A DNA stretch of 32,222 nt from a virus, in the IMG/VR virus record IMGVR_UViG_3300030116_003570, positions 1-32,222 of that record, one strand, 5' to 3'. Each line of letters begins with the position of its first letter. The stretch's first letter is position 1. Position numbers and translations under genes: made by a program. This document shows, piece by piece, positions 1,108-32,222 of this stretch. The notes beneath the pieces were generated by a model. It made no database searches and was not told where the DNA came from. It saw only the letters and a list, made by a program, of their open reading frames with translations.

Positions 1108-1794
1108 CTAAATTAAGTTGCCATCAGCATCAAAGCGATGGACGGGCGATTGATTCTTAGGCTTTTGTTTCAGTACAGATTCCGATTCAAATGTCAAACA
1201 TTCAGCGTAAACCTTAGAGCGTAGCACGGTAGTAGGTGATGTATTTTTATTCTCACGATACCAAACAGCGCGACTATGGTCAGATGTGAACAGCCACGTC
1301 AATAAACGTTTGCCATTCTCATATCCATTAGCCTTACCCTGTAACGCGCATATCACACCCATATCTGTACAGGAGATGATTGGAGGTATGTCACCATACC
1401 TTTCCTCGTGCAAACTAAACCAATGGGTGATAACGCCTTGCAGATTAGTATTGTATGCAATCGTGGTAACCAGTCTTGGTTCACACGTAGGATCTACATC
1501 TACATCTATCATCTCACCGTCGAACAGAATCTGGATTCTCAGTTCTCGGTTTGGCTGTCTAGGTACAGTCCGATTATTATTAGTGATGTTGTTATTATAA
1601 TCATCATCACCATCAATATTACTATTAAAGCAAGAATCGTGCCAAACACTTTCTACCTCCTGAATTGATTCCTTAACCTCAAACAGTTGTCCATAGTATA
1701 CTACGGTCGATCCACCTCTACTGCCAGGATACACAGCGTGTACCCCGGTTAGTAGTAAAGGTGTATTACGGTCTAACCTCGTAAGCCTAATCAT
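1108..1794 (-). CDS. Unknown protein with a FlbD-like N-terminus
   Basis: A 228-residue protein. The first 50 residues (MIRLTRLDRNTPLLL ... FEVKESIQEVES) follow the pattern of the small FlbD-like beta fold: MIxLTRL, then a target strand, then VKES..EV. Similar domains occur in phage proteins of unknown role. A low-complexity Asn/Asp stretch follows at about residues 55-75 (GDDDYNNNITNNN), acting as a linker, then a beta-rich region of unknown type. ATG at 1794 follows GGAGGTGAGCA and overlaps the stop of the upstream regulator gene (ATGA), so the two are translationally coupled. The FlbD resemblance is a pattern call and may be superficial. Confidence 0.78.
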   Translation of the reverse strand: MIRLTRLDRNTPLLLTGVHAVYPGSRGGSTVVYYGQLFEVKESIQEVESVWHDSCFNSNIDGDDDYNNNITNNNRTVPRQPNRELRIQILFDGEMIDVDVDPTCEPRLVTTIAYNTNLQGVITHWFSLHEERYGDIPPIISCTDMGVICALQGKANGYENGKRLLTWLFTSDHSRAVWYRENKNTSPTTVLRSKVYAECLTFESESVLKQKPKNQSPVHRFDADGNLI

Positions 1795-2513
1795 TGCTCA
1801 CCTCCCTGCTCTATGATTGCCACTTCCTTTATAGAGTCGAAGTCAATAACAATTTGGTTGAGTGTGTCCGTGGTGTGTGGGAACCACCGTATGACACCAC
1901 TTTCATACGTGACCATTACAATCTCACGTAACCGAGGTTGTGTTACCTCCGCCGGTATGTTTCTAAGTTTGTCATACGTGCCACCATCTAATCCAGACGC
2001 AATACCATCCGCAACATCTGTACCTAACGCCTGTGAAAAATAATTGTGAATGTATTCTAAATATAGAAAAGTTGGAGCGTTTTTGCCGTTCTCCCAAAAA
2101 CTAATAGTTTTTTGCGTGATGTCTCCTAACTCCTTACCCATCTGTTTTTGTGTGAGGTTAAGTTTGCGACGAGCGATTTTAAATGCACGTCGATTAAACT
2201 TTTGACGTATAGGTACATCAAATGCTGTGTCAGGTAAATTGCCTGGGTCTAAACCCGTAATCGCGATAGCCCGTTCCTTGCCATATTTGCTTGCAATCCA
2301 ATGCGAGAGTTGGCACAGTTCGTAATGTTTGGGAGTACCACCATATTTTTCACTGACAGATTCCCAACGTGATATTTTCTTTTGTGACATTCGTCTTAAT
2401 GTTGGAATCTCACTCATTAAATAAACAGCAAATTGTTCTTGATTCATTCCTGAATACCCGTACTCTAATCCAGTCTCATGACGTAGTTTTTGAAACTCCA
2501 TTTTATTAAACAT
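1791..2513 (-). CDS. Transcriptional regulator with two XRE-type helix-turn-helix regions
   Basis: A 240-residue protein. Residues about 105-150 form a clear XRE/Cro-C1 domain (ARRKLNLTQKQMGKELG followed by TISFWENGKNAP). The N-terminal 60 residues look like a second, diverged copy (NQEQFAVYLM, then MSQKKISRWES), so the protein may bind two half-sites or be an internal duplication. The C-terminal ~60 residues are beta-rich (REIVMVTYESGVIRWF) and may be the dimerisation or sensor part. ATG at 2513 follows GAGGTGAACG, overlapping the end of the gene before. It is a good candidate for the protein acting on the inverted-repeat operator at 5478-5529; that link is inference. Confidence 0.84.
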   Translation of the reverse strand: MFNKMEFQKLRHETGLEYGYSGMNQEQFAVYLMSEIPTLRRMSQKKISRWESVSEKYGGTPKHYELCQLSHWIASKYGKERAIAITGLDPGNLPDTAFDVPIRQKFNRRAFKIARRKLNLTQKQMGKELGDITQKTISFWENGKNAPTFLYLEYIHNYFSQALGTDVADGIASGLDGGTYDKLRNIPAEVTQPRLREIVMVTYESGVIRWFPHTTDTLNQIVIDFDSIKEVAIIEQGGEQ

Positions 2514-4920: not shown

Positions 4921-5433
4921 CTATTTGAATCTTAGTTGTTTTTTGGTTTTTTCGGTATAGTCGTAGCCGTCGAAATATTCATCTGTTGACGTAGCAGGAT
5001 CGGTACAGTGTTGACGTGCCTTGACTATAGTTAGGTTTTTGTATCCACCTTTTCGAATACGTAGACAACCCCCCGCTTTATAATGTCGAATAATGTCATA
5101 TTTTGGTTCGTGTGCTAGAATGATGTTAGCCATAAAAGAAAAGTAATTGTTACAAATTAGATCCTCTTGTCTATCGGTTAAAACATCATCACAACTCCCC
5201 ATATCCTTGGCTAACTGTAAAATTTCATAATTATAACAGGCGATAGGTATTGCTAGACCTTGTAACCAGTGGGTCATACTGTGTTGATCTGCTTGCACGT
5301 TCATCTCTTTATAGAATCGTTCGAAGATCTGTTCGAGCGCCTCTTGTATAGGATAGCGACAATCTTCTGTCTCCATTACCTGTGATAAGTATCTGAGATA
5401 GTTCTTTTTGTATTTTGTGTGATGTAATTTCAT
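4921..5433 (-). CDS. First leftward early protein, conserved-type hypothetical
   Basis: A 170-residue protein. The frame is open to 5529, but ATG at 5433 is chosen because AAGAGTAATACA before it matches the leader of its neighbours; upstream starts lie within the promoter or operator. Features are a basic N-terminus, a helical core (TEDCRYPIQEALEQIFERFY), then HWLQGLAIPIACYNYEILQLA, reminiscent of a conserved protein in aquatic phages (LQGLP...FYNYDIL) that has no known function. It is the promoter-proximal gene of the leftward operon, where host-takeover genes tend to lie. Function unassigned. Confidence 0.75.
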   Translation of the reverse strand: MKLHHTKYKKNYLRYLSQVMETEDCRYPIQEALEQIFERFYKEMNVQADQHSMTHWLQGLAIPIACYNYEILQLAKDMGSCDDVLTDRQEDLICNNYFSFMANIILAHEPKYDIIRHYKAGGCLRIRKGGYKNLTIVKARQHCTDPATSTDEYFDGYDYTEKTKKQLRFK

Positions 5434-5477
5434 TGTATTACTCTTGGTTGAATGGTTAGTATTAATCAACTTCATTG

Positions 5478-5529
5478 TTGATACTTTAATCTTAGCATAG
5501 GCAAAACAGATATGCAAGTAAAGTATCAA
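5478..5529. promoter_or_regulatory. Operator-like inverted repeat framing the leftward promoter
   Basis: TTGATACTTTA at 5478-5488 and its exact complement TAAAGTATCAA at 5519-5529 form 11-bp arms. The 30-bp gap between them contains the whole leftward promoter, with the -10 box touching one arm and the -35 box one base from the other. This spacing is about three helical turns between arms, as expected for two repressor dimers or a looped repressor. Confidence 0.7.
5489..5517 (-). promoter_or_regulatory. Leftward early sigma70 promoter
   Basis: On the minus strand TTGCAT (5517-5512), 17-nt spacer, then TAAGAT (5494-5489) preceded by TGC, an extended -10. The -35 is weak but the TGn motif compensates. 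Transcription would start near 5482, inside one operator arm, and run through the 4921-5433 gene and its followers. Confidence 0.6.
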
Positions 5530-5563
5530 TCTTTTTTATTCTTTTTATTCTGTACATATTCTA

Positions 5564-5592
5564 TTGTTTACTGTTTATCGAGTATGTAGAAT
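5564..5592 (+). promoter_or_regulatory. Possible rightward promoter
   Basis: TTGTTT (5564-5569), 17-nt spacer, TAGAAT (5587-5592) is a fair sigma70 match and would give a leader of about 200 nt before the small terminase gene. A second candidate is the perfect TATAAT at 5761-5766, but its -35 (TTAATA) is poor and the region is so AT-rich that chance matches are expected. One rightward promoter must lie here; which one is unclear. Confidence 0.3.
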
Positions 5593-5800
5593 GGAAAAAA
5601 TAATTAAAAAAAGTTTCATTATGTGTAATTACATTGTGGTTTTTTGCTGTTTTATTGGTTCAATGTATTGTCAATCATCATCAACACCACCATCACTAAA
5701 CCCACTTTCTAATTATCATTATCTTTTTATCTCTCTTTTAATATACAAATAAATATGATATATAATATTTTATACCACTTTCAAACCAGGATATAATTAT

Positions 5801-6121
5801 ATGTCAGACCAACTAATTAAACGGAAGAGAGGTAGACCAAAGGGTAGTTCCTCAGGTAGGCTATTGTCCCCAGTCGCTCTAATGAGTAAGGCTATTAAGG
5901 AGCAGAATATAAATGCGCTTCTTTGGTCATACATAACGCTAGCCCAAAGTGAGATAAAAAATAATGGCAGTTGTGTTACGTTTAACGGACATAACTTAAA
6001 CCAGTTTGTGTCACTTTTACACCAGAGGGAAGTGACACAAAAACTAGGCGAACCCGATAATACCGATATAGTAGAGATACAGAAGTGGATAGCGTCAAGT
6101 GATATATCAGATGACACATAG
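5801..6121 (+). CDS. Probable terminase small subunit
   Basis: A 106-residue protein at the head of the rightward block, directly before the large terminase. The N-terminus is a basic AT-hook-like element (KRKRGRPKGSSSGR, residues 7-20), a minor-groove DNA-binding motif. The rest is helical with an acidic tail (SSDISDDT). Small terminase subunits recognise the packaging site and load the motor; position, size and DNA-binding N-terminus support this, but the sequence lacks a family signature I can name. ATG at 5801 follows AGGA. An alternative is an unrelated DNA-binding early protein. Confidence 0.6.
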   Translation: MSDQLIKRKRGRPKGSSSGRLLSPVALMSKAIKEQNINALLWSYITLAQSEIKNNGSCVTFNGHNLNQFVSLLHQREVTQKLGEPDNTDIVEIQKWIASSDISDDT

Positions 6122-6150
6122 TAAAACGTGGTTTATGTCACTTGACACAT

Positions 6151-6282
6151 CCCACCCTCGACCCTTGGGAATCCCCCTTATGGCATATGGCATATACTCA
6201 TTACAACGGGCGCAGGCGTGTGTGTGCCTGGGTGCGTACGCGCGACCTTGGGGTTCCCCCGTAGGGGGAAAAGGTGCCGGAT
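6151..6282. other. GC-rich island between terminase genes, candidate packaging site
   Basis: Hand count gives 74 G+C in the 120 bases 6151-6270 (62%), far above the AT-rich surroundings. It holds an imperfect direct repeat (6159-6180 and 6243-6263, sharing CGACC, TTGGG and TCCCCC), a tandem GGCATAT pair (6182-6195), the palindrome GCGTACGC (6234-6241) and a perfect hairpin TTCCCCC-GTA-GGGGGAA (6254-6270) one base before the terL ribosome site (AAGGTG, 6271-6276). No credible gene fits. A cos/pac site or a translational control element for terL are the two readings. Confidence 0.5.
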
Positions 6283-31083: not shown

Positions 31084-31248
31084 ATGGATAAAGATTTATT
31101 GGCATTAACACCTGAACTAGTGTTGTTTGTAAAAAAACTTATTGGTCATAGTCGTGGTGGTTTAACAAAAGATGAACGTCACGAACTAGCACAAGACCTA
31201 ATTAACTTGTTGTACAAAGTTCTTAAAGAACTTGTGGACGCTGACTAA
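31084..31248 (+). CDS. Small acidic helical protein (54 aa), last rightward gene
   Basis: A 54-residue protein starting at ATG 31084 behind AAGGAGTACATT. It begins MDKDLLALTPELVLFVKKL and ends LLYKVLKELVDAD, two amphipathic helices joined by a polar turn (SRGGLTKDERHE). Its end overlaps the convergent 31223-31543 gene by 26 bp, the only place where opposite genes overlap. No function suggested. The ribosome site and stable frame support it as real. Confidence 0.68.
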   Translation: MDKDLLALTPELVLFVKKLIGHSRGGLTKDERHELAQDLINLLYKVLKELVDAD

Positions 31249-31543
31249 GTTTCAACGCAGGCAGATGTCTTGTCTTTGCGGAGGTGCGTTTGTTGTAGCG
31301 TTCCTCCGCATAGGTGAGTTCGTCTATAGATAGCAGTGCCTCTACCAAGAGCCTAAGTGGACTGGTATTCTCAGCAATGCTTATCACCTCAACGATTGCT
31401 ATTAGGTTGATCAGACGTGGTGCGTAGTCTCCACATACATATCCATATATTGATTTTTTATGTAAGCCAGTCTTTTTGGCAACTAACTTTAATGTTAGTT
31501 TGTTTGCCTTAAACTTCTTTTGCAACCATATATCTAATGCCAC
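31223..31543 (-). CDS. XRE-type helix-turn-helix protein, last leftward gene
   Basis: A 106-residue protein if it begins at GTG 31543 (frame is open to TTG 31576, which lies inside a terminator hairpin). Residues about 10-45 (KANKLTLKLVAKKTGLHKKSIYGYVCGDYAPRLINL) form an XRE/Cro-type helix-turn-helix; the rest is helical, then a basic tail. No good ribosome site precedes GTG, so the start is uncertain. The terminator at 31553-31595 sits immediately upstream, so expression may require read-through. It could regulate the early or late promoters; target unknown. Confidence 0.68.
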   Translation of the reverse strand: MALDIWLQKKFKANKLTLKLVAKKTGLHKKSIYGYVCGDYAPRLINLIAIVEVISIAENTSPLRLLVEALLSIDELTYAEERYNKRTSAKTRHLPALKLSQRPQVL

Positions 31544-31615: not shown

Positions 31616-31843
31616 CTAACCCAATTTCTTTTGCTTGTACAGCAATAAAGAAAGTTTTATGTATTCAGGTTGCCACTTCTTACCGTATACGAACTTCGAT
31701 AAGCCTACTAGATTCGGTACATTAGGTGTATTCACATCAGTTACCCACTTGGTAATTGCGTTGCGACTTATTCCTAACTCCCTGGCTAGATCCATCTTGT
31801 TCACTGGTTCAAGTACGATTCTTAGGTGTTCTCCGAAGATCAT
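31616..31843 (-). CDS. Small helix-turn-helix (Cro-like) protein
   Basis: A 75-residue protein. Residues about 15-40 (NKMDLARELGISRNAITKWVTD) form a Cro/XRE helix-turn-helix: ELGISRNAITKW is the recognition helix region. The C-terminal 30 residues are aromatic and basic (KFVYGKKWQPEYIKLSLLLYK), possibly a dimer contact. Its length is like that of Cro-type repressors. ATG at 31843 follows AAGGAG and overlaps the ERF stop (ATGA). It is followed by a strong terminator. It is a candidate for binding the arms at 5478-5529; this is inference. Confidence 0.8.
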   Translation of the reverse strand: MIFGEHLRIVLEPVNKMDLARELGISRNAITKWVTDVNTPNVPNLVGLSKFVYGKKWQPEYIKLSLLLYKQKKLG

Positions 31844-32222
31844 TGTAACTCCTTAAACGAATCCATCATTCTATTATTCACTTTGAATGTATCTCGTATC
31901 TTATATGGATTACCACCATCACGAACCCATTGTTTGATGTTCTCGTACTCAGGATGGGTGTTGTTTAGCCATTGTTTGTTTGCGTCATCTACTGGTTCCA
32001 TATAAAACGAACCACCTGTGTTGCTCTTAGCCTTAGGTCTATTGTCTAATGCTGTTCTTACCACACTGTCGGTTGCCTTGTTTGCATCATCATCAGGTTC
32101 CGTAATAATGTCTAGCAGTGCCGATATAGCATAACGTTTAGCGTAGGTGATAGCACCACCCCAGGCTTGAATGTCGTTGCTTTTAAGATGTAGTTTAAAC
32201 GTACTAGAGATGGATTGACCGG
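31840..32222 (-). CDS. erf: ERF-family single-strand DNA annealing protein, C-terminal part (gene starts at 329)
   Basis: Minus-strand continuation of the gene begun at 329. The last 100 bases (32123-32222) duplicate 1-100, so the unique part is 31840-32122 (283 nt). Frame is kept across the join: the RYAIS motif of 1-13 continues as ALLDIITEPDDDANKATDS, the acidic end of the ERF domain. The tail (GGSFYMEPVDDANKQWLN ... NRMMDSFKELQ) ends at TGA, overlapping the next start by 4 nt. Confidence 0.85.
   Translation of the reverse strand, partial: GQSISSTFKLHLKSNDIQAWGGAITYAKRYAISALLDIITEPDDDANKATDSVVRTALDNRPKAKSNTGGSFYMEPVDDANKQWLNNTHPEYENIKQWVRDGGNPYKIRDTFKVNNRMMDSFKELQ
32123..32222. repeat. 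Right copy of contig-terminal direct repeat
   Basis: Identical to bases 1-98, with one difference at 32221 (G against A at base 99). See the left copy. The single difference is synonymous in the ERF gene, so natural variation between genome copies is as likely as sequencing error. Confidence 0.93.

Follow-up and report, generated by a model that had tools for sequence, protein, structure and literature searches.

A perfect inverted repeat frames a promoter-like site in the early region of a 32-kb phage genome: a candidate operator

Introduction

Does a perfect inverted repeat that encloses a promoter-like site mark an operator at which a phage controls its early genes, or do the two coincide by accident in AT-rich DNA? 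This question is raised by a 52-bp element in IMG/VR virus record IMGVR_UViG_3300030116_003570, which was analyzed from position 1 to 32,222 (the window, 32,222 nt). A first-pass annotation had described the element as what a genetic-switch operator would look like, in a genome with three helix-turn-helix (HTH) proteins and no integrase. We tentatively favor a different role, i.e., a leftward early promoter combined with a repressor operator that would serve autoregulation of the early genes rather than a lysogeny switch. If so, early expression would be controlled mainly at this element in a phage family that is represented here by metagenome contigs alone, and three candidate regulators can be named.

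Results

The repeat lies in a divergent early region

The window is best explained as a tailed, roughly 32-kb virus of bacteria. Its ends repeat (1-100 vs. 32123-32222, 99/100 identical) and an Erf-like gene, for an Erf-type recombination protein, spans them, indicating that the window is close to complete with a circularly closed map. On such a map, the leftward genes would run from 5433 through position 1 to about 31223. The divergent intergenic region (5434-5800, 367 bp; 24.8% G+C vs. 37.9% for the window) is flanked by a leftward gene and by a rightward 106-aa gene, followed by that for the terminase large subunit. No library family matched the rightward 106-aa gene, which is taken from its position as a terminase small-subunit candidate. 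No leftward promoter-like site in the first 12 kb is stronger than the one at 3243-3216 (minus strand, TTGACA-16-TACAAT with TG), which is found upstream of the 70-, 167-, and 240-aa (HTH) genes. The features of the locus are listed in Table 1.

Table 1. Coordinates of the repeat, the predicted promoters, and the candidate regulators in the window.
Feature	Position	Strand	Remarks
Left arm TTGATACTTTA	5478..5488	+	Would overlap predicted start of leftward promoter; identical in L002
Right arm TAAAGTATCAA	5519..5529	+	Just upstream of -35; 5527 C to T in L002
-10 TAAGAT with extended TGC	5489..5494	-	From sequence; hexamer and TG unchanged in L002
-35 TTGCAT, 17-bp spacer	5512..5517	-	From sequence; unchanged in L002
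Predicted leader of leftward early transcript, up to ATG 5433	5434..5477	-	5434-5471 identical in L002
First leftward early gene	4921..5433	-	170 aa, MKLHHTKYKKN start, phrog_11100, unknown function
Invariant block, 109 bp, window vs. L002	5528..5636	.	Alignment with L002
Palindrome TGTAATTACA	5624..5633	.	Recurs in divergent early regions of the family; candidate family operator
Predicted rightward promoter TTAATA-17-TATAAT, terminase/structural operon	5738..5766	+	Sequence scan
240-aa HTH_3 protein, candidate repressor	1791..2513	-	Patchy in family
106-aa HTH_3 protein, candidate repressor	31223..31543	-	Conserved across family
75-aa HTH_3 protein, candidate repressor	31616..31843	-	Conserved across family

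The arms frame a promoter-like site of weak consensus more closely than expected by chance

The repeat is exactly where the first-pass annotation had placed it: two arms pair at 11/11 bp across a 30-bp gap, and the gap holds a leftward promoter-like site whose -10 hexamer abuts one arm and whose -35 hexamer is separated from the other arm by a single base. Read on the minus strand, the gap is C-TTGCAT(5517-5512)-17 nt-TAAGAT(5494-5489), where TGC precedes the -10. The match to consensus is weak at 7/12 (3/6 for the -35 against TTGACA, 4/6 for the -10 against TATAAT), which explains why a consensus scanner did not list the site. Its best feature is the extended -10, and no other extended -10 promoter-like site of at least its quality occurs on either strand of the intergenic region. 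Judged by sequence, the site would suit the leftward early genes as their promoter: the first ATG of these genes is at 5433, and the predicted transcription start is near 5482. The dyad symmetry overlaps the promoter-like site, as is expected of operators of the HTH_3/XRE type. There is no further exact arm in the window, where copies with one mismatch fall in genes, and no copy of the dyad at the rightward promoter or the stronger leftward promoter at 3243-3216.

Dinucleotide-preserving shuffles were used for all chance tests. Among the intergenic-region shuffles, 2.2% had a perfect arm of at least 11 bp with a gap of up to 60, and the whole window contains four perfect dyads of such size against 0.85 expected. 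A promoter of this quality was found in 16% of random 30-bp stretches, falling to 1.1% with TGn. For framing, a promoter of equal or better quality had to have 11-bp arms within 0-3 bp. Of 3000 intergenic shuffles, one had such a promoter framed by arms of 11/11, a figure that overstates the rarity because the test was shaped post hoc with the feature already seen; arms of at least 10/11 framed one in 44 of 3000 (about 1.5%), and for 13 family regions in 19 of 3900. Pure chance is thus an unlikely, though with a post hoc test still conceivable, source of the dyad and its framing of the promoter.

The promoter and leader are kept in the only close relative

Fifty-seven contigs encode a related terminase large subunit (best segments 79-99% identical), and among them only L002 (= L084, L085) holds the same intergenic region. 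Searches by terminase small subunit and by an arm-based pattern recovered only this relative, plus L003, a contig that begins inside the region and is without the arms. The window and L002 differ at 20 positions over the 367 bp (5.4%), with no changes in 5434-5471, 5528-5636, and 5728-5800. Three changes fall in the 52-bp element, a rate as in the rest of the region; two are in the spacer and one is in the right arm, where it breaks one pair, while the left arm is intact. Conservation of the arms in close relatives, which the first-pass annotation had made a test of its proposal, gives a mixed picture: 10/11 pairs are kept in the only close relative, though no better than the surroundings.

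Both hexamers and the TG are identical in the two contigs. Left of the start codon, L002 has different genes, indicating that promoter and leader have been kept as a block and the genes exchanged. The exchange falls exactly at the start codon (window 5397-5433; L002 near 2088), and unrelated phage contigs, e.g., L067, also retain a close version of the first 37 coding bases (MKLHHTKYKKN).

The early intergenic regions of 12 wider relatives gave no recognizable alignment with the window, and the arms were absent at the leftward promoter in all 12. Overall, sequence conservation speaks little for the arms as an operator. Several of these relatives have a much better leftward promoter, e.g., TTGACA-17-TATACT. 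No related phage was found in a DNA search of the phage collection. In most relatives, a GP88 (PF17338) gene lies between the early region and the terminase (L019:5651-6511, L043:4902-6053, L012:5548-6465); it is missing at that place in the window, L002, L054, and L036.

A different palindrome recurs across the family

Across the family, TGTAATTACA and not the 11-bp arms is the dyad that is conserved in the early region. It occurs once in the window, inside the invariant 109-bp block, and exact copies are present in the divergent regions of L002, L054, L030, L037, L026, and L012, several of which otherwise do not align. In addition, L035 has an exact copy 726 bp upstream of the terminase (650 in the window) and L036 a copy with one mismatch. 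The palindrome is common to 5 of 10 regions chosen as non-redundant, a number that overstates independence given that L026 and L012 are partly alike; the best shared palindrome in 1000 shuffle sets was common to at most three, reached once. Its only other occurrences in the complete records are two sites in open frames of G007 and one more in L012, located within a short ORF. The palindrome offers a second, better conserved target, which separates family-level from lineage-specific control. A link between the 75-aa HTH protein and TGTAATTACA was rejected for now, given that L012 and L024 share the recognition helix and the palindrome is found only in L012.

Two HTH proteins are family-wide and encoded away from the dyad

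The presence of three HTH proteins was confirmed, and all are of the HTH_3 type. The 75-aa and 106-aa proteins each occur in 13 of the 14 records searched, missing only from the 12.9-kb fragment G001, so that every record of sufficient length for the comparison (13) has both. For the 240-aa protein, a pattern search of IMG/VR returned no relative and distant ones were found among the family records. Of the three, the two smaller proteins are more promising as a core regulator; their recognition helices vary among family members, which would let the operators diverge. None of the HTH genes is adjacent to the dyad or divergently transcribed from it; the genes flanking the dyad are the 170-aa gene of unknown function and the terminase small-subunit candidate, with no repressor gene. 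In line with the first-pass annotation, the ORFs scanned gave no integrase match, although many of them lack any family match and a divergent integrase could be missed. These ORFs also yielded no S24-type repressor.

Identical arms occur in an E. coli-type prophage

We scanned IMG/VR for both arms with a gap of 25-35 and found a single contig, L083 (IMGVR_UViG_2617271340_000011). The two elements have identical, inverted 11-bp arms, with a gap of 28 in L083 compared to 30 in the window, and a promoter-like TTGATA-18-TACATT of L083 starts in the left arm and lies between the arms. In contrast to the window, the L083 dyad is situated between a CI-like repressor gene (HTH_3 plus Peptidase_S24) and a divergent small gene, and a third operator-like site is present, whereas the window offers no more than two sites and lacks a neighboring repressor. 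Apart from this element, the two phages are unrelated. The L083 region matches E. coli NZ_CP116067.1 (98.8% over 161 bp); three E. coli chromosomes carry the region, and their annotation names the repressor a LexA family protein. The L083 region contains three GATACTWWAGTATC-like 14-bp sites with 1, 2, and 2 mismatches; read as the same 14-bp sites, the window arms match at 11/14 each (three mismatches each). These operator-like repeats make an operator reading of the window arms concrete, without proving it.

The L083 repressor has no close counterpart among the window HTH proteins. In IMG/VR, dyads of the 9-bp arm core were found in 41 stretches, compared to 10 for a scrambled control; 31/41 and 6/10, respectively, lie inside ORFs, which shows no enrichment of the arm core in regulatory DNA. 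By our estimate, extending the 41 core stretches by four bases would give approximately 0.3 full matches, and since core dyads are mostly in genes, the L083 match may be luck. A text search of the literature for the arm and the palindrome returned no relevant operator paper by title.

Discussion

In our tentative model, RNA polymerase would start near 5482 and transcribe the early genes to the left. The repressor would be an HTH_3 protein of the phage itself, encoded either in this operon or where the operon continues past the genome ends, and would bind both arms, one over the start site and the other upstream of the -35. Once bound, it would shut the promoter off, amounting to negative autoregulation of the early genes. 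We favor this operator reading because 11/11 framing is rare and the extended -10 site is the only one of its quality in the region; because the hexamers, TG, and leader are kept in L002 despite different downstream genes; because the early genes run leftward from ATG 5433 and two HTH proteins are family-wide; and because L083 carries the same arms between a repressor gene and a divergent gene, at sites that the window arms match at 11/14. It is weakened by the broken pair in L002, by arms that are no more conserved than their surroundings and are absent in the 12 wider relatives, by the lack of a second copy, and by the poor -35. The L083 comparison also weighs against it, with no HTH protein of the window close to the L083 repressor and a match that may be fortuitous.

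Many of these weaknesses speak for the main alternative, which is almost as probable: that the promoter is real, the dyad is a coincidence of AT-rich sequence, and the regulated site lies elsewhere, such as TGTAATTACA at 5624-5633. Consistent with such a coincidence, the arms are not conserved in the family and one pair is broken in the only close relative; TGTAATTACA occurs in 5 of 10 non-redundant divergent regions and in the invariant 109-bp block; and dyads with the same core are found mainly in coding DNA. However, framing of this kind is rarer than expected by chance, and because operators of HTH proteins change quickly, their loss from distant relatives is expected.

Of the proposed genetic-switch operator, one part keeps some support: the leftward early promoter may plausibly have an operator. 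The switch itself, i.e., a lambda-like or TP901-1-like decision between lysogeny and lysis, is improbable. The divergent early region, three HTH_3 proteins, Erf-type recombination protein, and same arms in the L083 repressor region are in keeping with it, but no integrase or S24-type repressor was found in the ORFs scanned. Moreover, the dyad is single, with none at the opposite promoter, and the HTH genes are elsewhere. A scan of one genome collection (84,980 bacterial and archaeal genomes) also returned no terminase relative, and no prophage was seen. Repressor sites of P2 are direct repeats on both sides of promoter elements. The putative sites of the window likewise lie on both sides of promoter elements, but its arms are inverted and 41 bp apart center to center. 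The TP901-1 CI/MOR switch combines MOR sites with three operator sites for CI, and its promoters lie between the two repressor genes (PMC7250872). The window resembles this switch in its predicted divergent promoters, several putative repressor sites, and HTH-class candidate repressors, and it differs in having a terminase and an unknown gene where TP901-1 has its repressor genes.

An RNA element, i.e., a hairpin or terminator formed in read-through transcripts, is very improbable: RNA crossing both arms could form 11 perfect pairs, but the loop would be 30 nt, just 2 of the stem pairs are G-C, no terminator was called at the dyad, and with a start near 5482 the leftward transcript would hold just part of one arm. 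An invertible promoter flanked by recombinase sites for phase variation is extremely improbable. Such switches are indeed built as a promoter between inverted repeats, but 30 bp is a very small segment for a site-specific recombinase to invert, no recombinase of this kind was found, and the gap has the same orientation in the window and L002, with no inverted form in IMG/VR.

Returning to the favored operator reading, a broader and rather unlikely extension would be that this is a strictly lytic marine-type phage family in which a CI-like operator and conserved HTH proteins serve only early-gene timing, with lineage-specific operators at early promoters and a family-wide TGTAATTACA read by a shared factor.

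A further set of repeats lies at 6005-6155, in the 3' end of the terminase small-subunit candidate, where four copies of GTCACTT/AAGTGAC are arranged in mirrored pairs. A perfect 12-bp dyad is present at 6005-6016/6030-6041, 11 bp of which are kept in L003, and these repeats could be a packaging site or an operator.
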